DNA of 41,640 nt from the NCBI GenBank assembly GCA_023473595.1, contig JAMCYV010000010.1, positions 1 to 41,640 of the forward strand, written 5' to 3'. How positions within the stretch are numbered: the first letter of the stretch is position 1; every line of letters begins with the position of its first letter. The position numbers were made by a program, and so were the translations under genes. Source of the DNA: Patescibacteria group bacterium. GTDB taxonomy: Bacteria; Patescibacteriota; CPR2; UBA1875; JAMCYV01. The notes under the pieces are model-generated. The model ran no database searches. It saw only the letters and a list, made by a program, of their open reading frames with translations, and was not told where the DNA came from. Below, piece after piece: positions 24,863-41,365 of this stretch.

Positions 24863-25239
24863 GTCATTCTGGCTTGTCCAGAATCCTTTCATAAAGATCC
24901 ATTAGATTTGGGTTTTCTTTCTTTATTAATCTTAATTTTTCTTCTCTTTTCATATTTTTTATCTGCTTCTCTCTTATAATCGCTTCTAAAGGAGTTTTAA
25001 AGCATTCAAAATAGACTAATTTGTGTATATGATATTTTTCTGTAAAACCTTTAACAACCTCTTTTTTGTGTTGGTAAACCCTCTTTATTAAATCATTTGT
25101 CATGCCGGTATAAAGCGTTGGCCTCTGGTTGGCCATTATGTAGGTGTAATATATTTGGCTCTTCATATTCTGTCGCCTGGTTTGTCTGGGATCTTGATTC
25201 TGGTCTCTCCCGACTATCATCGGGATCGCCAGAATGACA
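24863..25239. mobile_element. palindromic element carrying a GIY-YIG gene, copy B
   Basis: The GIY-YIG gene is bounded on one side by a half palindrome (TCATTCTGG...CCAGAATCC, 24864-24886) and on the other by a longer palindrome ending GATCGCCAGAATGACA (~25170-25239). The same outer sequences without any gene occur inside femX at 25427-25498. The ORF's last codons (ILDKPE) and stop are encoded by the repeat. Confidence 0.65.
24864..25166 (-). CDS. GIY-YIG endonuclease, copy B
   Basis: A 100-aa stand-alone GIY-YIG nuclease domain (UPF0213/COG2827-like). The motif pair is YYTYIMA (6-12) and LYTG (17-20), then NDLIKRVYQHK with the catalytic Arg, LVYFE, and AIIREKQIKNMKR with the catalytic Glu. 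All nuclease core residues are present; no DNA-binding domain. ATG 25166 is chosen; upstream codons come from the repeat. It is 40-50% similar by eye to copy C at 40145 and sits in the same palindrome context. A role in moving the repeats is inference. Confidence 0.88.
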   Translation of the reverse strand: MKSQIYYTYIMANQRPTLYTGMTNDLIKRVYQHKKEVVKGFTEKYHIHKLVYFECFKTPLEAIIREKQIKNMKREEKLRLIKKENPNLMDLYERILDKPE

Positions 25240-25241
25240 TA

Positions 25242-26288
25242 TCAACGCATAATCTTTCTTACCCTGTTAACTAAAGTAAACATTTTATACCAAAACTGAT
25301 TTAAAATCAAGTCATAAGCGCCTGGAAACTTGACAACCTCCCCTGTCTCTCCTATTTTTGCAAATCCCATTTTGAATTTGGTGATGCCGGCCCAGGGATG
25401 GTTTTCGTCTATGGCCCAGCTAATATTGTCATCCTGGCTTGTCCAGGATCTATTTGATTCTGGTCTCTCCCGATTAGCATCGAGATCGCCAGAATGACTA
25501 GTTAGGGGCATTCTTTCAGCCGCAATTCCCCAGAAATCATAGTATTTGCAGTCTCTTTTCTTTGCCTCTTTTATGGCTTCCCATTGGGCTAAGTGGTTCG
25601 GCATAAATTCTCTTAAGTCGTTTGAAGAAGCGCCGTGCAGGTAAATGGTGGTGTCATTATAGAAAAGAATAATAAGAGAAGAGAGCGGTTTTTTTCCTAA
25701 ATAAACGGTTAGTATTATTAAATTATTGTTTGGACCAAGGATCTCGGCCATCTTTTCATAATATTCCTTGGGATGAGGGCTATAGGTCTTATCTCTTTCC
25801 GAAATTTCCAACGAAAGCTTATAAAAATCATCAACCTCTTCCTTGGAATAACCGGACTTTACTGTTAAGCCTTTCTTTTCAGCCAAGCGGGTATTGTAGC
25901 GGTGTTTGGATTTCATCCCTGCTAAAAGCTCTTCTTCTGTTTTGGTTAAATCTAAGACAAGGGTTTGTTTTGGTGAGTATTGCTGGGAAAGCGGCGAATA
26001 TTTATTAACTTTTTTTAAATTTTCTGATTCTAGAGCTTGGCTAGGTTCGATTCTGGTAAAAATTAACGATTTGTCTTTTGAAAAGTTGTTTACTGTTAAT
26101 TGTTTACTGTTTACTGAAACTGGTCCTTTTGGGCAGAAAAAGTAACTTTTTCCCTTCAAGAGCTTTCCCTTATAAAAAAAACTGCCGTCTAACTCTATCA
26201 CTTCTCGGCCAACGGCTTCCTGAAAATCAGCCCAAGCTCTAGATTGAAAGATATTGTTCTCTTTAGAATAAAGATTTTTCATATCCAT
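25242..26288 (-). CDS. FemAB-type aminoacyltransferase with repeat-derived insertions
   Basis: FemX/FemAB-family enzymes add amino acids from tRNA to peptidoglycan precursors, or act on related acceptors. ~348 aa. Family landmarks: IFQSRAWADFQEAVG (about 10-24), LDLTKTEEELLAGMKSKHRY and YYDFWGIA, then HPWAGITKFKMGFA and YDLILNQFWY. Two stretches look foreign: VNSKQLTVNN (simple repeat at 26085-26120) and a 24-residue insert with HSGDLDANRERPESN between WGIA and the HPWAG motif, which is a family-1 palindrome read in frame. Start ATG 26288 lies 7 nt after TAAAAT. The short longer frame upstream is not conserved. Confidence 0.85.
   Translation of the reverse strand: MDMKNLYSKENNIFQSRAWADFQEAVGREVIELDGSFFYKGKLLKGKSYFFCPKGPVSVNSKQLTVNNFSKDKSLIFTRIEPSQALESENLKKVNKYSPLSQQYSPKQTLVLDLTKTEEELLAGMKSKHRYNTRLAEKKGLTVKSGYSKEEVDDFYKLSLEISERDKTYSPHPKEYYEKMAEILGPNNNLIILTVYLGKKPLSSLIILFYNDTTIYLHGASSNDLREFMPNHLAQWEAIKEAKKRDCKYYDFWGIAAERMPLTSHSGDLDANRERPESNRSWTSQDDNISWAIDENHPWAGITKFKMGFAKIGETGEVVKFPGAYDLILNQFWYKMFTLVNRVRKIMR
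25427..25498. repeat. family-1 palindromic element inside femX
   Basis: 72 bp (24 codons), left half TGTCATCCTGGCTTGTCC, right half ending GATCGCCAGAATGAC. Both halves match the flanks of the GIY-YIG element 200-600 bp away. Frame is kept, so the protein gains an in-frame insert. Confidence 0.8.
26085..26120. repeat. GTTTACTGTTAATT simple repeat inside femX
   Basis: Units of TGTTTACTG/TTAATTG, read as VNSKQLTVNN in FemX. A similar stretch lies between comF and the transposase (41468-41495). Confidence 0.55.
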
Positions 26289-26295
26289 ATAGCTT

Positions 26296-26301
26296 ATTTT
26301 A
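26296..26301 (-). promoter_or_regulatory. -10 box of femX (leaderless)
   Basis: TAAAAT on the minus strand, 7 nt before the ATG at 26288. Confidence 0.45.
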
Positions 26302-26324
26302 GCATAGAAGCATCTGCTTAAAAA

Positions 26325-26356
26325 TCTAAAAGGCGAACAAAATGTCCGCCTTTTAA
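26325..26356 (-). terminator. terminator of the gene at 26353
   Basis: AAAAGGCGGACA...TGTTCGCCTTTTAGATTTTT on the minus strand; the stem includes the last codons and runs into the femX promoter region. Confidence 0.65.
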
Positions 26357-26991
26357 TAGGAAAAATACCAGGGGTCTGCGCCTTTTCCTTCTTCTCTGGC
26401 TTTCTTTGGCGGTGTGTACTCAGGTGGAACAACAATCCTAAGTTTGGTTAACCAAAAGTCCGCCAGTAACTCAAAGGCTCTATTGAAACGTCCATAGGTC
26501 TCATCATAAAGACCTTGGAAAAATAACCTCGACCCCTTTTTGCCTATAGCTTTAAGCTTATCAATGGAATCCATGCCTTGTAGCGAAACGTCGAATCGGC
26601 CTTCTTGCAGCCTGATTTCTTCTGAAGTTTTAGGCTTTAGCCCCATCTGATAGTAAGATAGCCACTCAAACTCCAGCTCATAGTTAGGCCTGTCTTCGGA
26701 AGACATTATGCCATCTTCCAAGGCGATGAAGCTAAACCCAGCGAGCATTGATTTAAGGTCATCTAGAAATATATTGCTCCGGGGGTTTTTTGCGTCCAGG
26801 TAAAACGAAAAGCCGGAATGGTAAAGACCTATCTTTGGCTTGATATGGCCACCACAAGAATAGTCGCTTATAAAGAAAGGCAGGGAATTCAGCTTTACTA
26901 TGAGAGATCGAATATTCCTGTCAACTCCCAGCATTATCTCTTCTACCTGCTCCTTATTTGGGCAGGCTTTCATAGATAGTTTAATAAGCAT
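26353..26991 (-). CDS. hypothetical protein (212 aa)
   Basis: Not recognised. A soluble protein. It begins LIKLSMKACPNKEQ, has a possible small motif ISDYSCGGHIKP (about 40-51) and FSFYLDAKNPRSN, then an acidic stretch ELEFEWLSYY. The C-terminus is Pro-rich and basic (PPEYTPPKKAREEGKG). ATG 26991 is chosen because GGGAGG lies ~6 nt upstream; a longer in-frame extension is Lys/Leu-rich and lacks a ribosome site. Divergent from tsaD, and followed by its own terminator. No transmembrane helix or signal peptide. Confidence 0.7.
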   Translation of the reverse strand: MLIKLSMKACPNKEQVEEIMLGVDRNIRSLIVKLNSLPFFISDYSCGGHIKPKIGLYHSGFSFYLDAKNPRSNIFLDDLKSMLAGFSFIALEDGIMSSEDRPNYELEFEWLSYYQMGLKPKTSEEIRLQEGRFDVSLQGMDSIDKLKAIGKKGSRLFFQGLYDETYGRFNRAFELLADFWLTKLRIVVPPEYTPPKKAREEGKGADPWYFSY

Positions 26992-27087
26992 TTTCAGCCT
27001 CCCAAGGTGCGAGCAATAACAGTAATTTAGCAGTTTAGCATTTTTTAGCTTATAAATCAAGACCTCGATATTTGGTAGGATCTTTTT

Positions 27088-27093
27088 TATAAT
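27088..27093 (+). promoter_or_regulatory. -10 box of tsaD (leaderless)
   Basis: A consensus TATAAT, 6 nt before the ATG at 27100. No ribosome site can fit. Confidence 0.6.
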
Positions 27094-27099
27094 CAAGAT

Positions 27100-28218
27100 A
27101 TGAAATCGGTTAAAATCTTAGCTATCGAGACAAGTTGCGATGAGACGGCGGCAGCAATTTCGAAAAACAATCAAATTCTTTCCAGCGTTGTTACCTCGCA
27201 AATAGAAACCCACAAAGGTTATGGCGGAGTGGTGCCGGAACTGGCGGCGAGAATGCATATTGAAGCCATTATTCCCGTTATCGACAAAGCTTTAAGAGAC
27301 GCCAAAACTAATTGGGATGAGATTGATGCCATTGCCGTTACCCAAGGGCCTGGCCTTCTAGGCTCGCTTCTTATAGGGGTTAATACGGCCAAAAGTTTGG
27401 CTTATTTAAAGAAAAAACCGATTATCGCGATCAATCATATCGAAGGGCATATATACGCGAATTTCATTCGCGAAATTCCAAATTCCAAATTCCAAATTCC
27501 AAAATTCCCGTTGATTGCTTTGGTAGTTTCTGGCGGGCATACCAGCCTAATTTATATGAAAGACCATTTAACTTATAAAGTAGTCGGCCAAACGATAGAT
27601 GATGCTGCCGGGGAGGCTTTTGACAAAGTTGCCAAAGTTTTGGGGCTTGGCTACCCTGGAGGGCCGATCATAAGCAAACTAGCCGAAAAAGGTAATGAGA
27701 AAGCTTTCGATTTTCCTAGAATCGATCTCACTCCCCCGCCTCAAAGGGACGATAGGGGATACCTTGTCCAGCCAACACCAAGCTTAAATTTTAGTTTTTC
27801 CGGACTTAAAACAGCAGTAATTAACGAAGTACGAAAGCTAAGTATTAGTGATAAACGATCAGCGACCCAACTTCGTCCTTCGGACTCCGCCGGGCGAGTA
27901 AGCGATAAGCTGAAGGCCGATGTTTGCGCTTCTTTTCAAAAAGCCGTTATTGATGTTTTAATCAGAAATTCTGCGACCGCTATAAAAATGTATAAACCCA
28001 AGTCCTTCCTTCTTTCCGGAGGGGTTGCAGCTAACTTAGAATTGAAAAAACAACTTAAGGGCTATTTGGCGAAAGAAAAAGTTAAGTTTTGTGTCCCAGA
28101 ACCGGCGCTTTGCACTGACAATGCTGCGATGATCGCTGTCGCTGGCTACTGGCATTACTTAAAAAGGGATTTTACAGTTGCTGATGCCTTAGAAGCCGAC
28201 CCAAACATAAAACTTTAA
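27100..28218 (+). CDS. tsaD: tRNA threonylcarbamoyltransferase TsaD with inserted peptides
   Basis: Makes the t6A modification of ANN-decoding tRNAs together with TsaB and TsaE (not seen in this window). 372 aa, versus the usual ~340. ILAIETSCDETAAAI at the start, MHIEAIIPVID, INHIEGHIYANF and VVSGGHTSLIYM (metal-binding His), DDAAGEAFDKVAKVLGLGYPG, FSFSGLKTAV, and LSGGVAANLELK are all in place. Extra residues are seen at REIPNSKFQIPK (an AATTCC tandem repeat) and at SDKRSATQLRPSDSAGRVSD (a GC-rich hairpin with flanking duplication). Both stay in frame. The -10 is 6 nt before ATG. Confidence 0.93.
   Translation: MKSVKILAIETSCDETAAAISKNNQILSSVVTSQIETHKGYGGVVPELAARMHIEAIIPVIDKALRDAKTNWDEIDAIAVTQGPGLLGSLLIGVNTAKSLAYLKKKPIIAINHIEGHIYANFIREIPNSKFQIPKFPLIALVVSGGHTSLIYMKDHLTYKVVGQTIDDAAGEAFDKVAKVLGLGYPGGPIISKLAEKGNEKAFDFPRIDLTPPPQRDDRGYLVQPTPSLNFSFSGLKTAVINEVRKLSISDKRSATQLRPSDSAGRVSDKLKADVCASFQKAVIDVLIRNSATAIKMYKPKSFLLSGGVAANLELKKQLKGYLAKEKVKFCVPEPALCTDNAAMIAVAGYWHYLKRDFTVADALEADPNIKL
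27470..27508. repeat. AATTCC tandem repeat inside tsaD
   Basis: About five units of (C)CAAATT after a small palindrome CGCGAAT-TTC-ATTCGCG. It is read in frame and adds ~12 residues to TsaD between the HIYANF and FPLIALVVSGGHT motifs. Confidence 0.6.
27846..27908. repeat. family-2-like hairpin insertion inside tsaD
   Basis: CTTCGTCCTTCGGACTCCGC and CGGGCGAG lie between near-repeats TAGTGATAA (27846-27854) and AAGCGATAA (27900-27908), 54 bp apart (18 codons). This looks like an insertion with a target duplication in a surface loop. Confidence 0.5.
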
Positions 28219-28249
28219 GTTTAGTCTTAAAAAATCAAGCATTTTCTGC

Positions 28250-28255
28250 TATAAT
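28250..28255 (+). promoter_or_regulatory. -10 box of valS
   Basis: TATAAT, with 23 nt to the ATG at 28279. The -35 (TTAAAA, 17-bp spacing) is weak. Unlike its neighbours, valS keeps a short leader. Confidence 0.55.
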
Positions 28256-28278
28256 CAGACTAATACGAACGAACTAAT

Positions 28279-30645
28279 ATGAACGAAAAACCAAAAACTT
28301 ATGACTTTAAAGAGCGCGAGGAACATTGGCGCAAATTTTGGGAAGAAAAAGATGTTTACCGGTTCGACGAGGACTCAAAAAAGCCGATCTATTCAGTAGA
28401 TACACCTCCTCCTTATGTTTCGGCCGAGCATCTGCACACCGGACATATTATGAGTTATAGCCAGGCAGAATTTATCGTCCGCTTCAAGAGGATGCAGGGC
28501 TTTAACGTCTATTATCCAATGGGATTTGATGACAATGGTCTTCCCACCGAAAGATTCGTTGAGCAAAAATATGAAATCGATAAGTCAAAGATAACTAGGA
28601 AAGAATTTGTTGAGCTTTGTTTGAAAGAAACAAAGCTCGGTTCCCAGAACTATCGAGATTTATGGCGGTCGCTTGGAATTTCAGTCGATTGGTCAAAAAC
28701 CTACAGCACCATTAATAAGCTTAGTCAAAAAATCGCCCAGTGGTCTTTTCTTGATTTATATAAAAAAGGGAAGATTTATAAAACAAAAATGCCGACTCTT
28801 TGGTGTGTTCATTGCCAGACAGCCATTGCCCAAGCCGATCTTGAAGCCGAAGAGCGCAAGAGCAAACTTAATTACATAGAGGTTGAAGTAGAAAATGGTG
28901 AAAAGCTTACTTTTGCCACGACCCGGCCAGAGCTTTTACCAGCATGTATGGGGATCTCTGTTCACCCAGATGACAAAAGATATAAGCGCCTTATAGGCAA
29001 AAAAGCTAAATTACCTCTAATCGGTAGAGAAGTTTTGATCTTTGGCGACGAGACAGTTGATCCTAAATTCGGCACAGGAGCCGCTTATTTCTGCTCTTAT
29101 GGAGGTGCCGAGGATATAGAGTGGCTTCATCGCCACCCTGAAGTTGAGTCTTTCCATATTTTAGGCCCCAATGGCCGATTCAATGAGCTAGGCGGGAAGT
29201 ATGCTGGACTTAAGGTTTCGGAAGCGAGAGAGAAGATTCTGGCTGATCTTAAAACGAGCGGCGCTCTTGTTAAACAGGAAGAGATAGAAAATGTTACCTA
29301 TGTCCATGAACGTTGCGGTACGGATGTCGAGTATATCTCTACCGAACAGTGGTTTATTAAGATCGTGGAAGCGAAAGATGAATTCTTAAAGCGAGGAAAA
29401 GAATTAAACTGGTTTCCCAAGAAAATGTATCGCATATACGAAGATTGGGTTAAATCCTTGAAATGGGACTGGTGCATCTCCCGCCAAAGATACTATGGCG
29501 TGCCTTTTCCGGTCTGGTATTGCGCTGACTGCAGAGAGATAATTTTACCCGACAAAAATGATTTACCGGTCGACCCCACGGCTGATAAACCTAAAAAAGG
29601 GTGTTTAAAATGCAAATCAAGCAAAATTAAGCCTGAAACCGATGTCTTTGACACCTGGATGACATCATCTTTAACACCATTAATCGGATTGCGATTGGTC
29701 AAAGAAGACCTTTGGGAAAAGTTATATCCAGAAAACCTGCGACCGCAGGCTTTTGAGATAATTAGAACCTGGCTTTTCTATACCGTGGTAAAATCGTATT
29801 ACCATTTCAAAGGTTTACCCTTTAAGGACGTTATGATTTCTGGGCATGGTTTAGACGAAAAAGGAAGGAAGATTTCCAAAAGACTAGGGAACTATATAAT
29901 TCCGGATCGAATTATTGAACAGTTTGGAGCTGACGCACTTCGTTATTGGGCTACTGGAGCCAAATTGGGCGGAAATATGCGCTGGAACGAAGACGAGGTT
30001 AAAAAGGGCAAGAGAACGGTTACGAAGCTTTGGAATGCCGCTCGATTTGTTTTTGACACAGTTGGTTCGGCTATTCCTGCTACAGTACCTGCTCTTGAAG
30101 AGGCGGATCTCTGGCTGCTTCACAATTTGAACAAGACGGTCCACGAGGCGACAGCATATTTTGAGGCCTATGAATATTCTTTAGCACGAAATGAAATAGA
30201 CGATTTTTTTTGGAAGATTTTTACCGATTACTATATTGAATTTGTAAAGCATCGAGTTTATGGTGAGGATAAAAAGAGTAAAGAGGTGGCCGCTTATACT
30301 CTTTATAATGCAATTTTAACACTTGTTAAGCTTTATGCGCCAATTATGCCTTTTATTACCGAAGAGATTTATCAGGAGTTCTTTAAAGAAAGAAGTAAAA
30401 CAGAAAGCATCCATCTTTCTAATTGGCCAGAAACGGTAAAGGAATGGCATTATCCGGAAAAAAAACACAGAGAATTTCAAAAGGTTTTAAGTGTTATTGA
30501 CGCGGTGCGAGCATATAAAACTCAAAATGGTATTTCGTTAGGCAAAGAGATCGAAGGTTTCACGACAAACAAAAAACTAACTTCGGAAGAAAAAGAGTTC
30601 ATCCAGAAAACCCAGAGAGTAAAAAGAATTACTTGTGCAAAATAG
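28279..30645 (+). CDS. valS: valyl-tRNA synthetase, archaeal/rickettsial type
   Basis: Charges tRNA-Val. 788 aa, short compared with E. coli ValRS (~950). The HIGH region reads PPPYVSAEHLHTGHIMSYSQ, followed by GFDDNGLPTERFVE, typical of the archaeal-like ValRS form. The editing domain starts near residue 205 (ATTRPELLPACMG). Other motifs: EQWFIKIVEAKDEF, DVFDTWMTSSLTPLIG, and the KMSKS site SGHGLDEKGRKISKRLGN, where the last Ser is Arg. The C-terminal coiled coil is absent or very short. It stops at TAG; the 14 codons after it do not look conserved. Confidence 0.93.
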   Translation: MNEKPKTYDFKEREEHWRKFWEEKDVYRFDEDSKKPIYSVDTPPPYVSAEHLHTGHIMSYSQAEFIVRFKRMQGFNVYYPMGFDDNGLPTERFVEQKYEIDKSKITRKEFVELCLKETKLGSQNYRDLWRSLGISVDWSKTYSTINKLSQKIAQWSFLDLYKKGKIYKTKMPTLWCVHCQTAIAQADLEAEERKSKLNYIEVEVENGEKLTFATTRPELLPACMGISVHPDDKRYKRLIGKKAKLPLIGREVLIFGDETVDPKFGTGAAYFCSYGGAEDIEWLHRHPEVESFHILGPNGRFNELGGKYAGLKVSEAREKILADLKTSGALVKQEEIENVTYVHERCGTDVEYISTEQWFIKIVEAKDEFLKRGKELNWFPKKMYRIYEDWVKSLKWDWCISRQRYYGVPFPVWYCADCREIILPDKNDLPVDPTADKPKKGCLKCKSSKIKPETDVFDTWMTSSLTPLIGLRLVKEDLWEKLYPENLRPQAFEIIRTWLFYTVVKSYYHFKGLPFKDVMISGHGLDEKGRKISKRLGNYIIPDRIIEQFGADALRYWATGAKLGGNMRWNEDEVKKGKRTVTKLWNAARFVFDTVGSAIPATVPALEEADLWLLHNLNKTVHEATAYFEAYEYSLARNEIDDFFWKIFTDYYIEFVKHRVYGEDKKSKEVAAYTLYNAILTLVKLYAPIMPFITEEIYQEFFKERSKTESIHLSNWPETVKEWHYPEKKHREFQKVLSVIDAVRAYKTQNGISLGKEIEGFTTNKKLTSEEKEFIQKTQRVKRITCAK

Positions 30646-30966
30646 GATTTCACAGCGGGGAATTTACGTATTATAAAAAGAAGCTGATAAACTGTAACGA
30701 GGGTGGACCAATCTAAATAGCTTTTGTATTTACTTTTTGGCACCAAAAAGTAACAAAAAGTGCCGACAAAAACAGCTTTTCAAAGTGTCGTTCGTACGCT
30801 CACTCAAATTTGCAAAAATCCGACAAGTCCGATACCGGAAAGTATTTTCCCAAATGTTCGTTCGCTTCTCACTCCCTTTGAAAACTGATTGTCGGAGGAA
30901 GTAAACTGGGAATTGGGGATAAAAATGTGGATGAGCGTACTTAAAAGGGGATAAGTGCTTAATGTT
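30646..30966. other. gene-free repeat patch
   Basis: No ORF. Contents: a palindrome TACTTTTTGG-CA-CCAAAAAGTA (30731-30752), pieces repeating GTTCGTTCGCT/GTTCGTACGCT with CTCACTC (30788-30872), and three TTATCC-like words (minus strand) near 30915-30956. It looks like decayed interspersed repeats. Confidence 0.5.
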
Positions 30967-30978
30967 TCACGAGAAACG
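30963..30978. promoter_or_regulatory. parS-like palindrome
   Basis: TGTTTCACGAGAAACG matches the ParB-binding consensus TGTTTCACGTGAAACA at 14 of 16 positions. It covers the stop codon of the methyltransferase gene. No parA/parB is in the window, so a role in segregation is only a possibility. Confidence 0.4.
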
Positions 30979-31646: not shown

Positions 31647-31683
31647 AATTTATCCATGATTCAAGCGATAGCAGATTATTTAA

Positions 31684-32358: not shown

Positions 32359-32420
32359 ATAAATTATTTACATAAGTATTTTACTATTTATACTTAATAA
32401 TATAAAGCTCTTATTTAGGA

Positions 32421-32449: not shown

Positions 32450-32467
32450 TGAATGGTAAAACTTTTT

Positions 32468-32557: not shown

Positions 32558-32601
32558 GGTTACTTAGCTAATTTACAAGCTATAGCAATAATATTGTATA
32601 C

Positions 32602-32871: not shown

Positions 32872-32890
32872 GAAACCAATTTAGATTTTT

Positions 32891-33950: not shown

Positions 33951-34070
33951 GGTCACCCTCCTTTAAGTGCTAACAATTATATTATTATTCACTTTTTCTG
34001 TGACCGCAAGTATTTTGTTTTAAAATGTCAAGAGTTTTATATAAAATAGCGGTGGTAGCCCAGGAATTGA

Positions 34071-35687
34071 TTATTCCTTGATTGCCCGCATTAGTTCCTG
34101 AATGGTTGTGACCCCTTGAGAGACTTTAATGAGGCCGTCCTGCTCCATGGTCATCATGCCGTTTTCGATGGCTAATTGCTGAAGATTATAAATTGGCATT
34201 TTAGCAATTATCGCTCTTTGAAGTTCAGGAGTGATGCCTAGGAGTTCAAAAATACCGACTCTTCCTTGATAACCAATATGATTGCATTTCTCGCATCCCT
34301 CTCCCTTGAAAAATTCCATTTTGATATCCTGCTGTTTTTCCGCCGGAAAAGTCTTTAAAATCCGATTGATTTCTTGATTTTCAATTTCTGTCGGAGTGTA
34401 GCTTGTCTTGCAATGGATGCATACTCTCCTTACTAGCCTCTGAGCGACAATTAGATTTAAGACTGTCGTTATCGTGGCCGGGTCGCTCGAAAGGTCAGCT
34501 AACCTAACTATGGAAGTGATAGCGTTGTTGGCGTGAAGGGTAGAAATAACCAAATGCCCGGTCAAAGCTGCTTGAAGGGCAGTTTCAGCGGTTTCTTTGT
34601 CTCTAATTTCTCCAACCATGATAATGTCCGGGTCTTCTCTAAGAACTGCCTTCAAGCGGTCGGCGAAACTTTCCCCTTCATTTATTTGGCTTTGGACAAC
34701 TCCTGTTAAAGCATACTCAATAGGATCTTCTAAAGTAACAATCTTCACCTCTGGAGTATTTAATTTATTAAGCATTGCATAGATGGTTGAGGTTTTGCCT
34801 GAACCGGTCGGTCCGACAACCAGAATCATCCCGTGAGGCCTGGCCAAAGATTCATTTATGATATGAAACTTCTCATCTAAGATTCCAAGGTTCTTAAGAT
34901 CAAGCATGCTGGCCCTCGTATTAAAAATTCTAATCACGATATCGTCGCCATATAAAGATGGCAAAGTTTCAATTCGGATGCTTAGTTCCCCGCTTTCGGA
35001 GATGACTTCAAAGCGTCCCTTTTGGGGAAAATTTGCTCCTAGCTTGACGCCGCTTTTAAGCTCGATCTGGGAAAGAAGAACTTTAAATCTTTCATTGTCT
35101 AACCTGGCGATTTCATGCAGGAGGCCGTCTATTCGAAAGCGGATCAAAGCGTCTTTTTCCTGGGGCTCTATGTGGACATCTGAAGAATTGGCGCTGACCG
35201 CCGAAAAAAGTATTAGCTTCAAAAGTTCCTGGATTGGCGCTGTCTGAAGCCTTTGATTTAGTTCTTCAAAAGAAGCAACCTTAATATCTAGACTTATAGT
35301 ATTATCTCTTTTATCTAGCTCGATTTTAGTAATGTTTTGGTATTTGCTTAAAAGCTCATTGAAACTCGGTTCGGAAATTAAGGCTAACTCGATATTTTTG
35401 AAATGACTTTTTAGAGATTCAAATAAATCGTTTAAGAATTCGCTGTGAGGATTTAAGCTTCCTAGTATTAAATGTGGTCCTTTTGAGTGAAGGGGGATCG
35501 TTTTATATTGTTCAACTTCTTCTTTAGAAAAAAGAGCTAGAGTATCAGAGGGAATTTCCAATTTCCTGGCGTCAAAATATTTAACTCCCATTTCGAAAGC
35601 CCGATCCCGAATAACTCTTTCCTGTCCGTCGCGATATAACTCTTGCGTTTTGGCCTGAGCGTTTTTCTGATTATTTTGGTCTAACAT
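34071..35687 (-). CDS. pilB: type IV pilus/type II secretion ATPase PilB-like
   Basis: Cytoplasmic ATPase that powers pilus extension or pseudopilus assembly. 538 aa. An N-terminal GspE-N domain (EVEQYKTIPLHSKGPHLI) precedes the ATPase: Walker A GPTGSGKTSTIYAML, Asp box TLEDPIEYAL, Walker B DPDIIMVGEIRDKETAE, His box GHLVISTLHANNA. A zinc finger follows (CIHCKTSYTPT...CEKCNHIGYQGR). No pilC, pilT or major pilin is adjacent; the VirB2-like array 2-4 kb away belongs to a different family. The -10 (TATTAT) is 6 nt before the ATG. Confidence 0.94.
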   Translation of the reverse strand: MLDQNNQKNAQAKTQELYRDGQERVIRDRAFEMGVKYFDARKLEIPSDTLALFSKEEVEQYKTIPLHSKGPHLILGSLNPHSEFLNDLFESLKSHFKNIELALISEPSFNELLSKYQNITKIELDKRDNTISLDIKVASFEELNQRLQTAPIQELLKLILFSAVSANSSDVHIEPQEKDALIRFRIDGLLHEIARLDNERFKVLLSQIELKSGVKLGANFPQKGRFEVISESGELSIRIETLPSLYGDDIVIRIFNTRASMLDLKNLGILDEKFHIINESLARPHGMILVVGPTGSGKTSTIYAMLNKLNTPEVKIVTLEDPIEYALTGVVQSQINEGESFADRLKAVLREDPDIIMVGEIRDKETAETALQAALTGHLVISTLHANNAITSIVRLADLSSDPATITTVLNLIVAQRLVRRVCIHCKTSYTPTEIENQEINRILKTFPAEKQQDIKMEFFKGEGCEKCNHIGYQGRVGIFELLGITPELQRAIIAKMPIYNLQQLAIENGMMTMEQDGLIKVSQGVTTIQELMRAIKE

Positions 35688-35693
35688 AACTCA

Positions 35694-35699
35694 ATAATA
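35694..35699 (-). promoter_or_regulatory. -10 box of pilB (leaderless)
   Basis: TATTAT on the minus strand, 6 nt before ATG 35687. No ribosome site. Confidence 0.5.
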
Positions 35700-35752
35700 A
35701 CATAAGTGAGTAGACTTGAAGAGATCTTACAGATACTAAAATAGTTATACTT

Positions 35753-36376
35753 TTAATTTTGTTTACTTAGCATTTTAATACTAATTGCAACTGTTTTATC
35801 TAAATAGGTTTCCGGAATCATAATTTTACCAGGCTCTAAACTAATTTTTTTAGAGTATGTTTTTGTCCACGGGACATGGAAAAAGATAAATGGAATCTGC
35901 TTATAGTTAGATGAAAGTTTCTTTCCGAGAAGATAAATTAATGAGTTACAGATAAAACCTTCGGCATCAACTGAAACTTCGCTATTAATCCCAGCCCTAT
36001 TTAATTCCTTAGCCAGACTGTCAGCTTCAACCGAAGTATAATAATATTCCCTAGAACCTGGGCAGATTGGGGTACCGAAGAATTGCTGGCCATCGATATC
36101 TGTGTATTGACTGTCCATTATATTTCGACCCCTGGTTTCCAACCGAATGGCAGGAACACGTGAAGCAAGCCCAAATGAAAGTACCATGTCTGGTTGATAT
36201 TTTTCTACTAAATCAAAGGCAATTTCAGCAGCCTTTTTATATGAACAAGGCAAAATTTGACCGATAATGAAAGCATTTGATAACTTTCTACCATTAAGTC
36301 TCTGTACTAAATCCTTAGTTGGGTTGTATTGATAATGACCAAAGGGCCCAAATCCAGTAAGTAAAACTTTTCTCAT
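35753..36376 (-). CDS. pcp: pyroglutamyl-peptidase I
   Basis: Cysteine peptidase (C15) that removes N-terminal pyroglutamate. 207 aa, normal length. It starts LLTGFGPFG, the family signature. Catalytic residues: Glu in SRVPAIRLETRGRN, Cys in GFICNSLIY (about 144) and His in IFFHVPWTK (about 167). Transcribed alone, downstream of tRNA-Ser(CGA) on the same strand. The ATG follows an AT-rich stretch without a ribosome site. Confidence 0.92.
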   Translation of the reverse strand: MRKVLLTGFGPFGHYQYNPTKDLVQRLNGRKLSNAFIIGQILPCSYKKAAEIAFDLVEKYQPDMVLSFGLASRVPAIRLETRGRNIMDSQYTDIDGQQFFGTPICPGSREYYYTSVEADSLAKELNRAGINSEVSVDAEGFICNSLIYLLGKKLSSNYKQIPFIFFHVPWTKTYSKKISLEPGKIMIPETYLDKTVAISIKMLSKQN

Positions 36377-36393
36377 ATTACATATATTTTATC

Positions 36394-36483
36394 TGGCGGA
36401 GGCGGGAAGATTCGAACTCCCGATACTCTTGCGAGTATACCTGATTTCGAGTCAGGTCCATTCAACCACTCTGGCACGCCTCC
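36394..36483 (-). tRNA. tRNA-Ser(CGA)
   Basis: Class II. Acceptor GGAGGCG/CGCCTCC, stem CCTGA/TCAGG with loop CTCGAAA giving CGA (UCG codon), long variable arm, encoded CCA. With GGA, TGA and GCT it completes the serine set within this window. Confidence 0.95.
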
Positions 36484-36484
36484 T

Positions 36485-36561
36485 TGGTACCCACGGCAGG
36501 ATTCGAACCTGCGACCTTATGGACCGCAACCATACGCTCTAATCCCCTGAGCTACGTGGGC
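36485..36561 (-). tRNA. tRNA-Arg(GCG)
   Basis: Stem TATGG/CCATA with loop TTGCGGT gives anticodon GCG (CGC/CGU). Acceptor GCCCACG/CGTGGGT, encoded CCA. It begins one base before the end of tRNA-Ser(CGA), an almost fused pair. Most bacteria use ACG (inosine) here. Confidence 0.93.
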
Positions 36562-36568
36562 AGATAAC

Positions 36569-36590
36569 AAAAAAGCCGTTTCAAAGGCTT
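36569..36590 (-). terminator. terminator of the gene at 36621
   Basis: Minus strand AAGCC-TTTGAAAC-GGCTT followed by TTTTG, just past the gene's end and before tRNA-Arg(GCG). Confidence 0.7.
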
Positions 36591-36620
36591 AATTTCAATT
36601 CTAAATCTACCTTATTTAGG

Positions 36621-37127
36621 CTAAAACTTCAATATCCGAGTCAGCTTGTCAGTATAACCTTCTTCTCTTTCCAATTCTTTCAAGGATTTCTTTAAAATGC
36701 TTTTAATGAGGACAGGATCTTGATCGTCCAGAAGAATCATTAGAGCCGGCAGATACTTCTTCTTGAAAATTAGATTTAAGGTTTTCACCTTCTCATTATA
36801 AATAATCCAAAAGGCATTTAAATTTTCATAGGGGTAAAATACGCCGTCGATCTCGATACCTACTCTGGAGATGGCATAATGTTTTATCTTTGGAGCGGTA
36901 TTTAGATAAATAAATGTACCGATTGAAGCTAAAGTAAGGATAATTATAAAAAACCAATCGCCGGTATAAACCGAAATTCCTAAAAGCGCTAAAAGAATTA
37001 TTCCAGCCGAGATGTACCACTTGACATTCCTCTGGTGGTGGACGAATTCCGGAGCCTCCCAGGAAAGGAGAATTTCCTGCGGAGCTATTTTGACCGGCTC
37101 TGCTATCTCTTCCTTTTTCTCTGCCAT
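36621..37127 (-). CDS. conserved membrane protein with PH-like domain
   Basis: Resembles hypothetical proteins I know from CPR genomes, but function is unknown. 168 aa: a polar start, the motif LLSWEAPEFVHHQRNVKWYI, two transmembrane helices (about 38-55 and 60-76), then a cytoplasmic domain with ISRVGIEIDGVFYPYENLNA and FWIIYNEKVKTLNLIF that looks like a bacterial PH domain. The C-terminus is a charged helix. A TGA-TATAAT box ends 6 nt before ATG (leaderless). Own terminator. Confidence 0.8.
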   Translation of the reverse strand: MAEKKEEIAEPVKIAPQEILLSWEAPEFVHHQRNVKWYISAGIILLALLGISVYTGDWFFIIILTLASIGTFIYLNTAPKIKHYAISRVGIEIDGVFYPYENLNAFWIIYNEKVKTLNLIFKKKYLPALMILLDDQDPVLIKSILKKSLKELEREEGYTDKLTRILKF

Positions 37128-37133
37128 AAAAAA

Positions 37134-37139
37134 ATTATA
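37134..37139 (-). promoter_or_regulatory. extended -10 box of the 36621 gene (leaderless)
   Basis: TGA-TATAAT on the minus strand, 6 nt of T before the ATG at 37127. Confidence 0.6.
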
Positions 37140-37188
37140 TCACAAAAACAATTTTAGTTTTCATGTTCTATTATTTCTATTTAAAAAT

Positions 37189-37216
37189 AAATGTAAGGCT
37201 TATAAGCCTTACATTT
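37189..37216. repeat. perfect 28-bp palindrome
   Basis: Arms AAATGTAAGGCT and complement around TATA. It lies just upstream of the 36621 gene's promoter region and 20 bp from the CGATCGTTAG hairpin. Terminator-like, without a strong T-run. Confidence 0.6.
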
Positions 37217-37235
37217 CGTATTTCCGTTTTTATTT

Positions 37236-37272
37236 GTCACCAAAAAATAAACGATCGTTAGAAAAAGGTGAC
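37236..37272. repeat. hairpin with conserved CGATCGTTAG loop, copy 2
   Basis: Arms GTCACC/GGTGAC enclose CAAAAAATAAACGATCG-type sequence with the same CGATCGTTAGAAAAA core as copy 1 at 3278-3315. It is in the 37128-37414 gap, which has no gene. Confidence 0.7.
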
Positions 37273-37368
37273 AAAATGGATTTTTTTTAAAAAGTGTTTT
37301 GATAGATTATTAACTGTCATGGAAAAATCAATGCAGTATTTTGATATTATAGCCGTAGGTTTTAGACC

Positions 37369-37394
37369 AAAAACCCGCCTTAAGGCGGGTTTTT
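37369..37394. terminator. terminator of the hsp20-pilin operon
   Basis: Perfect palindrome AAAAACCCGCC-TTAA-GGCGGGTTTTT, 20 nt after the last pilin gene on the minus strand. Confidence 0.85.
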
Positions 37395-37414
37395 GAAACG
37401 ATAAGTTTTTTATC

Positions 37415-37768
37415 TTATTGTCCTGGGATAACTGTTGCGACCTGGTTCTTGACGAAGGTAACTATTACGAATGAAAGGACGATGACAACAAGCCCGATAA
37501 CGGCCGCGAAAATTGTCTGTTTAGCTGCACCAGTAGCTTTCTCGTCACCGCCGGCGATGATGTATCTAATACCGCCATAAATGAGGAAAAGGACGGCAAT
37601 CGCGGCTGAAAACCCAAGAATATAGTTAACAATATTAGCTAAAATACCTGCTACAGTGTATTCTCCGACTGGCTGAATCGGGTTAACATCAGTAGGAACA
37701 TTGGCTGCCAAAACGGCTCCTGGGACCAGAGCTAAACTTGCTGTGACTGATTTTATAATTTTCTTCAT
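37415..37768 (-). CDS. VirB2/TrbC-like pilin, paralogue 5
   Basis: A 117-aa member of the T4SS pilin family widespread in CPR. A Sec-type signal peptide (cleavage likely at VLAA-NVP, about 22) is followed by two transmembrane helices: IVNYILGFSAAIAVLFLIYG and TIFAAVIGLVVIVLSFVIV, joined by the loop IIAGGDEKATGAAKQ. The GGDEK loop occurs in several copies. Last gene of the array; AGGAGG 5 nt upstream; terminator 20 nt downstream. Confidence 0.88.
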   Translation of the reverse strand: MKKIIKSVTASLALVPGAVLAANVPTDVNPIQPVGEYTVAGILANIVNYILGFSAAIAVLFLIYGGIRYIIAGGDEKATGAAKQTIFAAVIGLVVIVLSFVIVTFVKNQVATVIPGQ

Positions 37769-37800
37769 CTTTCCTCCTTTGAAATATATTTTAAATTATA

Positions 37801-38166
37801 TCACGGATTTGTGCCAACCAAGGCGTTCTGTGTCGTCGTAGTAACGAAATTGACAATTACCAAGGCGAGAATCAGGATGACAAGGCCGATAATAGCAGAA
37901 AAAAGAATCTTTTTGGCGTTTGCTGTCCTTTTTTCATCGCCTGATGAAGTCATATAAATTATACCACCATAAATAATGAAAAGTACAGCTAAAGCGGCGG
38001 AAAATCCTAAGATGTAATTAATAATATTGGTAATAAGCTTGGCGATATTGATATTAGAATTGATAGGCATTGGTGTCGGCTTAATCTCGTCAGAATTAAC
38101 TGCCAAGGCAGCGCCTGGGATAAGTGACATTAGAGCTAAAGTAATACCGGTGATTTTCTTTTTCAT
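37801..38166 (-). CDS. VirB2/TrbC-like pilin, paralogue 4
   Basis: 121 aa. Signal peptide ending AALA, then a short polar segment (NSDEIKPTPMPINSN) and two helices, IINYILGFSAALAVLFIIYG and ILFSAIIGLVILILALVIV. The loop is TSSGDEKRTANAKK. It is closest to paralogue 3 and separated from paralogue 5 by 32 nt. Confidence 0.88.
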   Translation of the reverse strand: MKKKITGITLALMSLIPGAALAVNSDEIKPTPMPINSNINIAKLITNIINYILGFSAALAVLFIIYGGIIYMTSSGDEKRTANAKKILFSAIIGLVILILALVIVNFVTTTTQNALVGTNP

Positions 38167-38174
38167 TTTTTCTC

Positions 38175-38510
38175 CTATTTAACAAATTCTACCGCTTGGT
38201 TTTGGATAACATTAACGATTACCAAAGCCAAAATCACAAGCACTAATCCTATTATAGCATAAGTTAAAGTTTTTTTAGCAACAGCTGTTCTTTTTTCGTC
38301 TCCGCCGGATGTCATATATTGGATTCCCCCAATAGCGATAAAAAGGACAGCTAAGGCAGAAGAAAACCCAAGGATATAATTGATGAAATTGTTAACGATG
38401 AAGTCTTTCAAAGTATAGCCTTGCGGTGGTTGAAATTCATTAATCTTTTCGGCTAAAGCTAGAGAAGGAATGAAAATGAAAAACCATAATTTATAGATTA
38501 CTTTTTTCAT
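38175..38510 (-). CDS. VirB2/TrbC-like pilin, paralogue 3
   Basis: 111 aa. Signal peptide ending LALA, mature start EKINEFQPPQGYTL, helices FINYILGFSSALAVLFIAIG and TLTYAIIGLVLVILALVIVN, loop TSGGDEKRTAVAKK. Its ATG overlaps the previous stop by 4 nt (ATGA), so it is translationally coupled to paralogue 2. Confidence 0.88.
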   Translation of the reverse strand: MKKVIYKLWFFIFIPSLALAEKINEFQPPQGYTLKDFIVNNFINYILGFSSALAVLFIAIGGIQYMTSGGDEKRTAVAKKTLTYAIIGLVLVILALVIVNVIQNQAVEFVK

Positions 38511-38860
38511 GAATAGCTTCCTCCCAAAACTCTGGCAAATATCGACAAAATTATTTTTGCTAAGACTACAAGCAAAAGGCCGATAATAGCGTAAGTTAAA
38601 AACTGTTTTCCTTTCTGTGCCTGCTTCTCGTTGCCGGCGGATGTAATGTATGTAACGCCGCCGATTACGATCATAAGCACTGCAATCGCTCCTGCCGTAT
38701 TTAAGACAATAGCTTGAACATTTCCTACCAGAGCTTCGATGGCTTGCCTTGAGTTAGCTTGGTTTTTATTCGGGTCATTTAGGCCGTTTAAAAGCGGCTC
38801 AGCCAAAGCTATCTGGGGTAAAAAGGGGATTACATAAACTAATTTTCTTAACGTTTTCAT
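38507..38860 (-). CDS. VirB2/TrbC-like pilin, paralogue 2
   Basis: 117 aa. Signal peptide ending IALA, a longer mature N-terminus (EPLLNGLNDPNKNQANSRQA) and helices IVLNTAGAIAVLMIVIGGV and FLTYAIIGLLLVVLAKIIL, loop TSAGNEKQAQKGKQ. The ATG shares one base with the stop of paralogue 1 (TAATG). Confidence 0.86.
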   Translation of the reverse strand: MKTLRKLVYVIPFLPQIALAEPLLNGLNDPNKNQANSRQAIEALVGNVQAIVLNTAGAIAVLMIVIGGVTYITSAGNEKQAQKGKQFLTYAIIGLLLVVLAKIILSIFARVLGGSYS

Positions 38861-39534
38861 TAGAAAAATCCATTAGGCGCATTTACGCCGACAACATTAA
38901 CAATAAAGAACCTAGCCAAAATGATAAGGGCCACCCCGGCAAGGGCGTTAAAAATAAGCATCTTGGCAGTTTTTATCCTGCCAGGATCGCCGCCAGAGAC
39001 CATATAGAGTATTCCACCAACACTGATAACGACTACTGCAATGGAACCTAGAATGATTTGTGCCCAATTGAAAGCTGACTGAAGCCAAGTATTAAGAGCG
39101 CTTTCATTTCTCGGGATATATTTATTGAAAGTCGTAGAGAAATATGCCTTCGATTGATAATCAGTGTTTTTTACTCCTTCTCCTATAGAAGCGCTGTCAT
39201 CCCAGTAAGTTATGCTTTTAATCCCGCAAGAGCTAATAGTCTGATTCCAATAATCAGGGTTATTTGCGGCACTATTAGGATCTACGCAAAAGGTAATCTT
39301 CTCACCCACTTTTCCTGGGTATAAGGGATTGCTGGCGTAAAAATTAGCATAATCATTTGTAATATTAGCTGTTCTTACAGCACCATCGCTAGTTCCGTAT
39401 TGGGCCTCAACTTTTGTACCCGGTTCAAAAAAAATTATTCTCCCATTTACATAGGTATTAGCGGCATAAGTATAATTAAAATAGAAAAAGAGCCCTAATA
39501 GCGCGAGAGAGATTATGAAAAATATTTTTTTCAT
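38860..39534 (-). CDS. pilin-like protein with extra exported domain, paralogue 1
   Basis: 224 aa. Unlike its four neighbours, about 110 residues lie between the signal sequence (ISLALLGLFFYFNYTYAA) and the pilin part, with TYVNGRIIFFEPGTKVEAQY and two Cys (FCVDPN, SSCGIKS) that may form a disulfide. The C-terminal half is the two-helix pilin: WAQIILGSIAVVVISVGGIL and NALAGVALIILARFFIV, loop VSGGDPGRIKTAKM. It may be an adhesive or tip subunit (inference). It starts 4 nt after hsp20. Confidence 0.82.
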   Translation of the reverse strand: MKKIFFIISLALLGLFFYFNYTYAANTYVNGRIIFFEPGTKVEAQYGTSDGAVRTANITNDYANFYASNPLYPGKVGEKITFCVDPNSAANNPDYWNQTISSCGIKSITYWDDSASIGEGVKNTDYQSKAYFSTTFNKYIPRNESALNTWLQSAFNWAQIILGSIAVVVISVGGILYMVSGGDPGRIKTAKMLIFNALAGVALIILARFFIVNVVGVNAPNGFF

Positions 39535-39538
39535 TTGA

Positions 39539-39967
39539 TTATTCTTCGGTTACCTTGAGTTTCCTAAGCTTGCTTTGGCTAGCTTTGGGCACTCTTATAG
39601 TTAAAATTCCGTTTTTAAAAGTAGCTTTGGCTTTGTCGGGGACGACTAGAACTGGCAGGTTGATTGTTCTCGCAAAGCTCCCCCAGTAACACTCCTTAGC
39701 AGTATATCTCGATTCGTGGACTTCTTTTTCTTCTTTGCGACTTCCTTTCACAGAAATCATTTCATCAGTGACGGTGATGTCGAGGTCAGTTGATTTTACT
39801 CCGGCAATCGGCGCCTTTAGAACCAAATCTTTGTCTGTCTGATAAAGATCGACTGCAAGCTGGCCCATTACTTCTTCTTCAAGTGGATCATAGCTGTTTT
39901 CTAGAGAGTCCAGTTCGTAAGTATCGGTGCTCTCAAAAACCTCTTTGATATCATTTTTCGGTGCCAT
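39539..39967 (-). CDS. Hsp20/alpha-crystallin small heat-shock protein
   Basis: ATP-independent holdase chaperone. 142 aa. An acidic N-terminus (about 1-35) precedes the alpha-crystallin domain: LAVDLYQTDKDLVLKAPIAG, ITVTDEMISVKGSRKEE, then GSFARTINLPVLV and the domain-closing ATFKNGILTIRVPK. The usual IxI-type tail is replaced by a short Lys-rich end. AGGAGGG precedes ATG. It is the first gene of the operon that continues with five pilin-like genes. Confidence 0.92.
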   Translation of the reverse strand: MAPKNDIKEVFESTDTYELDSLENSYDPLEEEVMGQLAVDLYQTDKDLVLKAPIAGVKSTDLDITVTDEMISVKGSRKEEKEVHESRYTAKECYWGSFARTINLPVLVVPDKAKATFKNGILTIRVPKASQSKLRKLKVTEE

Positions 39968-39977
39968 AGTCCCTCCT

Positions 39978-40068
39978 AGATAGTTAATTAGTTAAATAGG
40001 CAAATAGTTGATCAGGAAAAGCCTAATTCACTAATCAACTGATTAACTAATTACCTATTTATAATTAT
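39978..40068. repeat. imperfect inverted repeat upstream of hsp20
   Basis: TAGTTAATTAGTTAAATAGG and its near complement CCT-AATTCACTAATCAACTGATTAACTAATTACC units. AT-rich; no operator family recognised (no CIRCE). The hsp20 promoter should be here but is not clear. Confidence 0.4.
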
Positions 40069-40111
40069 AATAAAGAAAAATGGTAATGCAAGTTGAATCT
40101 TCAGCCACTAT

Positions 40112-40461
40112 TGTCATTCCGGACCTGATCCGGAATCTAAAGATATGAAAACTTATTACGTTTACATGATGGCAAATAGGAAGCAAGGTGTTATTTATAT
40201 TGGTGTAACTTCTAATATTATTAAGAGAACTTATCAACATAAAGAAAAGTTAATTGAAGGTTTTACCAAGAAGTATAATCTAGACAAATTGGTATATTTC
40301 GAAGCGACTTCAAGTGTTGAAGAGGCAATTAAAAGAGAAAAACAGCTAAAGAATTGGAAAAGAGGTTGGAAAACTAATCTCATAGAGAAAACAAACCCTA
40401 AATGGCAGGATTTATATAATAATTTATTAAGATAAGATTCTGAATCAAGTTCAGAATGACA
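40112..40461. mobile_element. palindromic element carrying a GIY-YIG gene, copy C
   Basis: A left half TGTCATTCCGGACCTGATCC (to 40138), the GIY-YIG ORF, and a right half GATTCTGAATCAAGTTCAG to TGACA (40436-40461), which begins one base after the stop codon. The same two halves without the gene occur in comF 0.6 kb away. Left and right halves together form the short element. Confidence 0.7.
40145..40435 (+). CDS. GIY-YIG endonuclease, copy C
   Basis: 96-aa stand-alone GIY-YIG nuclease. YYVYMMA and IYIGVTSN hold the two core tyrosines, IIKRTYQHK the Arg, LVYFEATSS and AIKREKQLKNWKR the Glu, ending NPKWQDLYN. No other domain. It is homologous to copy B at 24864 and similarly framed by half palindromes. 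Upstream there is no ribosome site; the ATG follows AATCTAAAGAT of the repeat. Likely cuts DNA; its target and any role in repeat movement are inferred. Confidence 0.88.
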   Translation: MKTYYVYMMANRKQGVIYIGVTSNIIKRTYQHKEKLIEGFTKKYNLDKLVYFEATSSVEEAIKREKQLKNWKRGWKTNLIEKTNPKWQDLYNNLLR

Positions 40462-40483
40462 AAAATGACAAATAAGAAAGGTA

Positions 40484-41365
40484 ATGATTGAAGAACAGTC
40501 GTTAACTATGAAAGCTAAAGATTTTCTCCTTGACCTCTTTTTCCCTAAGAAGTGCGTCTCTTGTGGGAAAATCGATACTTTTTTATGCGATAAATGCCTT
40601 AGAAAAATCGTCTTTATCAAATCGCCTGTTTGCCTTGGGTGCGGGAGATTATCAGAAAATGGTAAGTTTTGCCCTAGATGCCGGCCAAAAAACCATTTGA
40701 AAGGAGTCGTTATCGCCGCTCACTTTGAAGAAGGACCTCTAAAGGAGTTAATCCACAGTTTTAAATATGAATCTTTGAAAGGATTAGATCAAACATTAGC
40801 CAACTTTCTTGCGGCCGCTCTGAAAAGGTATAATTTTAAAACCGACTATTTGATTTCATACGTTCCATTGCATCGGTCAAGATACCATTGGCGGGGCTAT
40901 AACCAATCGGAGCTTTTAGCCAAAAAAACAGCGGAAGCAATGAATATGTATTTTCTTAAAAACTTGCTCAGGAAGAAAAAGAAAACTAAGTATCAAATTC
41001 AGCTTAAGAGGAAGGAAAGGCTCCTAAACTTAAATGGGGTTTTTGAAGTTAATAAAAAAGTTGCTTTAAACTGTCATTCCGGGCTAGACCCGGAATCTAA
41101 GAACAAGATTCTGAATCCCGCCTTCGCCCAGCTTCGGCCGGGCGGGCAAGTTCAGAATGACAAAACAGTTAGCTGCTCTTCTTGTCATTCCGACCCCATT
41201 CGAATTTCTCAAGGTAAATTCCATGGAGGAATCTTTTTAAAAAACAAAAAAATAATCATAGTTGATGACGTTGTAACAACCGGGACTACCCTAAACGAAT
41301 GCGCCAAGGTCCTAAAGGAAGCCGGCGCTAAGGAAGTCTGGGGATTGGTTTTAGGCAAACACTAG
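40484..41365 (+). CDS. comF: ComF-like phosphoribosyltransferase with repeat-derived insert
   Basis: ComF-family protein linked to DNA uptake in competent bacteria. 293 aa against a usual ~230. An N-terminal zinc-ribbon region with four Cys pairs (CVSCG, CDKC, CLGCG, CPRC) is followed by the core: FKYESLKGLDQTL, ISYVPLHRSRYHWRGYNQSELL, RKERLLNLNGVF and the PRPP loop KKIIIVDDVVTTGTTL. Between FEVNKK and GGIFLKNKK ~45 residues (NCHSGLDPESKNKILNPAFA...) are encoded by palindromic repeats (41072-41215), in frame. Start ATG 40484 has AAAGG upstream; ATG 40508 is an alternative. Confidence 0.88.
   Translation: MIEEQSLTMKAKDFLLDLFFPKKCVSCGKIDTFLCDKCLRKIVFIKSPVCLGCGRLSENGKFCPRCRPKNHLKGVVIAAHFEEGPLKELIHSFKYESLKGLDQTLANFLAAALKRYNFKTDYLISYVPLHRSRYHWRGYNQSELLAKKTAEAMNMYFLKNLLRKKKKTKYQIQLKRKERLLNLNGVFEVNKKVALNCHSGLDPESKNKILNPAFAQLRPGGQVQNDKTVSCSSCHSDPIRISQGKFHGGIFLKNKKIIIVDDVVTTGTTLNECAKVLKEAGAKEVWGLVLGKH
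41072..41215. repeat. nested palindromic elements inside comF
   Basis: A family-1 unit (left half TGTCATTCCGGGCTAGACCC, right half GATTCTGAATC | AAGTTCAGAATGACA) is split at the bar by a 30-bp GC-rich family-2 hairpin (41118-41147). A second partial family-1 left half (TGTCATTCCGACCCC) follows near 41182. The reading frame of comF stays open throughout. Confidence 0.8.

Follow-up and report, generated by a model that had tools for sequence, protein, structure and literature searches.

GIY-YIG nuclease genes framed by CGTC-REP hairpins: a candidate minimal mobile element in Patescibacteria and other bacteria

Family-A units and hairpins in the window

The stretch analyzed here (the window) comprises 41,640 nucleotides and is one whole contig (JAMCYV010000010.1) of the 33-contig, 775-kb genome of a Patescibacteria group bacterium (assembly GCA_023473595.1). 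It contains two short open reading frames (ORFs) for GIY-YIG nucleases of a clade termed family A, each bounded by a pair of outward-facing hairpins of the CGTC class of repetitive extragenic palindromes (CGTC-REPs), together with hairpin pairs of the same plan that enclose no ORF. The ORF-bearing unit is regarded as a candidate mobile element and the ORF-less pairs as its putative derivatives. The following features were assigned in the window (coordinates, strand, description):

40112–40461, plus: copy A, complete ORF-bearing element with an outward-facing hairpin at each end and the ORF inside
40112–40137, plus: left terminal CGTC-REP hairpin of copy A, TGTCATTCCGGACCTGATCCGGAATC
40145–40435, plus: family-A GIY-YIG nuclease of copy A, 96 amino acids, full catalytic residue set, AlphaFold pLDDT (predicted local distance difference test) 94.5
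40436–40461, minus: right terminal CGTC-REP hairpin of copy A
24862–25239, minus: copy B, complete ORF-bearing element upstream of murE
24864–25166, minus: family-A GIY-YIG nuclease of copy B, likely start MKSQIYY
25427–25499, plus: ORF-less two-hairpin unit, in-frame insertion in femX, both ends like copy B
41072–41162, plus: ORF-less two-hairpin unit, in-frame insertion in comF, nested palindrome in the right half
41183–41215, plus: further left-half fragment (third left half) in the same comF insertion
22045–22107, plus: ORF-less two-hairpin unit, intergenic
21972–21998, minus: single CGTC-REP hairpin
22012–22040, plus: degenerate single CGTC-REP

Copies A and B are intergenic, as are all complete elements seen. 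Copy A opens with TGTCATTCCGGACCTGATCCGGAATC and closes with GATTCTGAATCAAGTTCAGAATGACA (40112–40461), and the hairpins of both copies face outward, the left one beginning with the tag TGTCAT or AGTCAT and the right one ending with the reverse complement of the tag. In copy B the annotated ORF extends into both hairpins, and the longer ORF reaches position 25220 by read-through of the hairpin. The terminal hairpin of this copy at 24862–24884 overlaps the 3′ end of the GIY-YIG ORF as well as the start annotated for murE; this hairpin may contribute codons or change where murE starts. An intron was not detected in the window with Rfam. The window also contains another palindromic repeat, CATAGACCAAAATTTGGTCTATGGCA, at 18745–18770 and 19047–19072, the two occurrences of which lie within a 64-nt inverted repeat.

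The first-pass annotation of the window had described units with and without an ORF as versions of one shared palindrome. This applies to two cases: the right half of the unit at 22045–22107 equals that of copy A at 26/27 nt (D17), and the femX unit resembles copy B with 88% identity over 26 nt at the left end (D20) and 93% over 45 nt at the right end (D6). Elsewhere the form is shared but not the sequence, and the left half of 22045–22107 differs from the copy A hairpin (69%, D2). One universal flanking sequence was ruled out, as stems vary between elements of one genome; the palindrome is a structural class, the CGTC-REP, with many stem types that are usually matched within an element.

The hairpins follow the plan [C/T]GTCAT-stem-loop-stem-ATC, facing outward in pairs, and their tag is [C/T]GTC, not GTAG. 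A survey from 2013 characterized CGTC-REPs by a CGTC/TGTC tag, an 8–9 bp stem starting with AT, a short loop and a CCA-like tail, and by their occurrence mostly as dimers and sometimes within genes; it equated them with dRS3 of Neisseria and RPE-4/RPE-6 of Rickettsia (PMC3733652). The hairpins described here share the tag (CGTC/TGTC), the stem (8–9 bp, starting with AT), the loop (usually ~4–5 nt, with longer variants), the tail, the dimer habit and the occasional intragenic position. In the 2013 account, no association with transposase genes was recognized, and the repeats "apparently lack a dedicated transposase" (PMC3733652); the present hairpins differ by the family-A gene between them.

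The pattern GTCATYSCN{6,26}GSRATC gave 57 matches in the 775-kb genome versus none for the reversed control. At the three inner stem positions left free in this pattern, 24, 27 and 32 of 41 distinct copies were paired, versus shuffle means of 12, 17 and 17. Thus, the hairpins are not a product of chance. Inverted dimers predominate in the host genome, with 16 outward pairs versus three pairs with inward tags. The pair census there was carried out on selected DNA stretches, in which the sizes of the outward pairs were bimodal: 12 pairs of 54–79 bp held no ORF, and four of 348–376 bp all held a family-A ORF (4/4). A total of 320 kb from other Patescibacteria contained 23 ORF-less pairs of 40–100 bp, 13 pairs of 300–450 bp (12/13 with family A) and none of 450–1560 bp; these regions had been picked around family-A genes, which biases the ratio of filled to empty units but not the size gap. 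Three pairs above 200 bp without a called GIY-YIG gene were checked; one proved to be a family-A gene whose left end had been misplaced, and two gave no match.

Flanking of family-A genes and matching of their ends

Thirteen GIY-YIG matches were obtained in the host genome, namely uvrC, six family-A genes and six other short genes. All of the family-A genes (6/6) lie between outward-facing hairpins, and ORF-less units outnumber ORF-bearing ones; together with the empty sites in relatives described below, this bears out the earlier claim that filled and empty versions of the unit exist. A scan in which each bacterial and archaeal species was represented by a single genome yielded at least 580 family-A relatives; the 80 closest among the matches listed, from >10 phyla, were retained. 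At these 80 loci, a strict hairpin finder detected hairpins on both sides in 47 cases, on one side in 25 and on neither in 8, versus 0, 6 and 138 of 144 control regions taken 1.1 kb away from family-A loci. When the eight exceptions were re-read, tag-bearing ends were recognized at both flanks of seven, where loops are long, stems degenerate or the orientation reversed, and at a single flank of L112.

Family A forms a single clade in the tree (support 98/98), and its hidden Markov model leaves a wide gap between family-A proteins (≥113 bits) and other short GIY-YIG proteins (≤61–76 bits). Two-sided flanking was found for 72/142 family-A genes, even with 20 loci included that had been added for their hairpin-poor genomes, versus 1/62 other short GIY-YIG genes of the phylum, and the sole flanked gene among the latter is a truncated family-A gene. 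The framing of GIY-YIG genes by the palindrome, as proposed in the first-pass annotation, thus stands for the family-A clade and not for the other short GIY-YIG genes of the same genomes. Neither of the two outcomes named there as refuting it was found: the clade keeps its flanks in more than 10 phyla, and the presence of the flanks does vary with the ORF enclosed.

These data bear on the view that the hairpins are terminators or ordinary repeats beside a neutral gene. According to the literature, gene ends are a frequent location of REPs, and termination can be influenced by them. However, the flanks are confined to one GIY-YIG clade and face outward on both sides, hairpins are also found in frame within comF and femX, pairs of 300–450 bp hold almost nothing but family A, and equal flanking of random genes is contradicted by the 0/144 control regions. 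A bystander role of the hairpins is therefore highly improbable. Plain terminators were ruled out by the outward orientation on both sides, the positions within genes and the tracking of one gene clade.

The two ends of an element resemble each other, with a median distance of 0.19 between left and right ends of one element versus 0.56 between elements (p = 1e-18). In the host genome alone, the matching was significant against random hairpin pairs of that genome (P = 0.009). Protein and hairpin distances of 63 elements were correlated (Mantel r = 0.34; partial r = 0.29 with GC content controlled, p = 0.0005); the correlation vanishes when only pairs below ~55% identity are considered. As an example, the proteins of L001 (host genome) and L146 (another class) are sisters, L153 is placed close to them, and GTCATTGCGAG hairpins are present at each of these loci. 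The ends of L001 are of the type GTCATTGCGAG..GAAGCAATC, and the only matches to this pattern in the host genome are at the flanks of L001. In 287 genomes of the phylum, with kinship ignored, the median hairpin excess over control was 39 with family A versus 8 without (p = 9e-15), corresponding to an odds ratio of 8.2 for an excess above 20. The loose hairpin pattern is noisy in GC-rich genomes and was read solely against its own reversed control.

The matched ends have to be considered against the main rival explanation, homing into resident palindromes, according to which the REPs spread by other means and the nuclease gene is a parasite; gene-less REP pairs would be cut by its product, and repair would copy the gene in. 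Homing is a classic activity of GIY-YIG enzymes, and REPs are present in genomes without detected family A, both in agreement with such homing. In contrast, left and right ends match, and the ends travel with the gene, the GTCATTGCGAG..GAAGCAATC type of L001 being found also on L146 and L153 in other lineages.

A group of short GIY-YIG genes outside family A in Patescibacteria (L233–L260; L005, L007, L009 and L013) very often adjoins a tRNA or transfer-messenger RNA (tmRNA) gene, with a tRNA or tmRNA within ~320 bp at roughly 17/28 loci of short non-family-A GIY-YIG genes; in the host genome, L009 and L013 lie 12–17 bp from a tRNA. No tRNA was found within 1.5 kb of the family-A genes of the host genome. 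At L003, a short GIY-YIG gene separates the 16S 3′ end of the rRNA operon from tRNA-Ile; the inverted repeat CCCGCACCTTTTAGCCC / GGGTTAAAAGGTGCGGG flanks this gene. A tRNA-like stretch with two palindromic inserts, CTTGCCC..GGGGTGAAG, at L013:1690–1830 adjoins a truncated GIY-YIG gene that is interrupted by a run of N.

Duplicated copies and orthologous sites

The related genome G173 carries two 410-bp copies that are identical at 409/410 positions. The identity extends from TGTCATT to GAATGACAGAGA and stops precisely at the hairpins, and the flanks are unrelated.

Orthologous loci were compared at three alphaproteobacterial sites (in Azospirillum, Sphingobium and Sinorhizobium), and filled alleles were found versus empty or solo-hairpin alleles. 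The sufB–sufC interval of Azospirillum lipoferum contains the unit; in A. ramasamyi, A. oryzae and strain B510 (94–95% identical around the site), this interval is a short gap with no such hairpin. Beside fnrL of Sphingobium, TomMM7A and TomTYG73 are filled, the gene of the latter being frameshifted, while TomTYG64 and TomTYG74 have one two-tagged hairpin and TomTYG72 has none. Between gltA and lpxB, Sinorhizobium meliloti Ak57 contains a full unit and an internally deleted one that retains the last codons of the gene; Sinorhizobium K101, with 96% identical flanks, has one two-tagged hairpin at this site. The deleted unit is located as follows:

L174:2155–2330: internally deleted element of S. 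meliloti Ak57, directly upstream of the full element, its two hairpins enclosing the last codons of the gene

In the window itself, the comF insertion is missing from 8/8 aligned comF relatives, and among the femX relatives L280 alone has an insertion at that place, which is unrelated. A family-A gene adjoins comF in G173 as well (contig C40, 14041–15042), on the opposite side of the gene; this adjacency may be a coincidence or may reflect a common hotspot.

The solo hairpins at orthologous sites are compatible with homing into REPs. Some empty alleles lack any REP (Azospirillum; Sphingobium TomTYG72), which argues against it. Because of these alleles and because the ends travel with the gene, this explanation is weakened, and we consider it unlikely.

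The nuclease and the proposed element

GIY-YIG is the sole Pfam match of the family-A protein, which has neither an HUH motif nor homology to REP-associated tyrosine transposases (RAYTs). The catalytic set Y7, Y18, G20, R28, H32, E65 and N84 is invariant across 142 proteins, and dN/dS ratios (nonsynonymous to synonymous substitution rates) of 0.02–0.19 among close pairs indicate that family A is under strong purifying selection. The solved structures closest to the confidently predicted fold (pLDDT 94.5) are those of UPF0213 proteins and Slx1, a nuclease cutting branched DNA; the predicted fold would fit an enzyme working on extruded hairpins. A genome usually has 1–8 copies, presence is patchy (95/287 genomes of the phylum), and the family-A tree mixes phyla. 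Phage cargo was ruled out, as there was no family-A match among 50,697 phage records. A defence gene was likewise rejected, with PADLOC giving no convincing match and a single weak hit at 17.8 bits.

Hairpin-flanked family-A genes were also found in A. lipoferum, S. meliloti and Neisseria gonorrhoeae, the gonococcal one with dRS3 sequence, and the family-A gene of Novosphingobium aromaticivorans has a CGTCG tag. Two species (A. lipoferum and S. meliloti) and two genera (Neisseria and Bradyrhizobium) with hairpin-flanked family A are thus shared with the taxa of the 2013 survey (PMC3733652). No earlier report of a link between GIY-YIG proteins and such palindromic repeats was found in the open-access literature (subscription papers and preprints lay outside the search).

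Among known systems, REP/RAYT shares with the present units the tetranucleotide-tagged hairpins, the inverted non-autonomous pairs and a gene flanked by cognate hairpins. As in a REPtron, the gene lies between cognate inverted REPs, and gene-less REP pairs occur elsewhere in the genome. However, the RAYT is an HUH tyrosine transposase (TnpA-REP, related to IS200/IS605) linked to the tag GTAG, whereas family A is a GIY-YIG protein linked to CGTC. With insertion sequences and miniature inverted-repeat transposable elements (IS/MITE pairs), the units have in common that autonomous and gene-less versions share their ends; in contrast, neither a DDE nor an HUH transposase is present, a target duplication was not seen at the one precise duplication, and the ORF-bearing unit measures only ~350–400 bp. 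The GIY-YIG homing endonucleases I-TevI and I-BmoI also place this catalytic domain on a mobile unit, but the present element is hairpin-bounded and has no separate DNA-binding domain, and no intron or intein was seen with it; free-standing homing nucleases exist. Single-domain GIY-YIG proteins of the UPF0213/YhbQ type and Slx1 resemble family A in fold and catalytic residues, yet family A forms a clade apart and has its own hairpin flanks, which other short GIY-YIG genes of the same genomes lack.

The filled and empty pairs, the empty sites in relatives and the precise recent duplication uphold the comparison with REP/RAYT made at first reading. The unit is probably a REP/RAYT-like minimal mobile element with a GIY-YIG nuclease as its enzyme. 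Sequence data support the element with its ends, its gene-less derivatives and its mobility. Cleavage of the hairpin by this nuclease, and the dependence of unit copying on such cleavage, we infer from the specificity of the flanks, the matched ends, the co-occurrence of gene and hairpins and the conservation of the protein. The element would span ~350–400 bp, with a single gene, for a single-domain, structure-specific GIY-YIG nuclease, between two CGTC-REP hairpins that face outward. The enzyme would recognize the hairpin and its [C/T]GTCAT tag, extruded as a single strand or cruciform, and nick at the tag or close to it; the unit would then be copied to a new site by replication or repair. 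Gene-less pairs of 54–79 bp would be non-autonomous derivatives that arose by internal deletion or were mobilized in trans, and would correspond to the CGTC-REPs (dRS3, RPE-4/6) of many bacteria.

Several observations weigh against this interpretation. A hairpin excess above 20 was found in 51/192 genomes without detected family A, and an excess of at most 20 in 21/83 genomes with it. No target-site duplication was evident at the precise duplication in G173, the sole such case, and at other filled/empty sites the intergenic flanks are diverged or REP-bearing, which limits the reading of such duplications. A two-tagged solo hairpin is the expected remnant of a deletion between the 8-bp stem arms, but solo-hairpin alleles can be deletion products or pre-insertion targets, and both readings fit. 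Finally, the purifying selection deduced from the codon comparison could also signal a host function.

A domesticated nuclease of this kind would trim, resolve or limit REP cruciforms for the host and move them only rarely. Domestication has been proposed for many RAYTs, and the strong purifying selection, the invariant catalytic residues, the usual number of 1–8 copies and the structural closeness to Slx1 would suit it. It is rather improbable in view of the near-identical copies with new flanks, the empty alleles, the frameshifted copy in TomTYG73, the patchy presence and the mixing of phyla in the tree. We thus retain the interpretation as a mobile element, and lean slightly towards a new class of self-mobile elements present in many phyla, the sole protein of which would be a single-domain GIY-YIG nuclease processing hairpin ends.

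CGTC-REPs are among the commonest bacterial repeats and include dRS3 of Neisseria and the palindromic elements within protein genes of Rickettsia. The means of their spread was left open in 2013, and a nuclease clade with its own hairpin type makes this question directly testable. A likely function is offered for hundreds of genes annotated merely as "GIY-YIG nuclease family protein" or "excinuclease ABC subunit C". If the interpretation is true, two unrelated folds, HUH and GIY-YIG, would each be paired with tagged palindromic repeats, few autonomous transposable elements would be smaller than the ~350–400 bp unit, and the CGTC-REP/dRS3/RPE repeats would have in it the engine that they have been missing.

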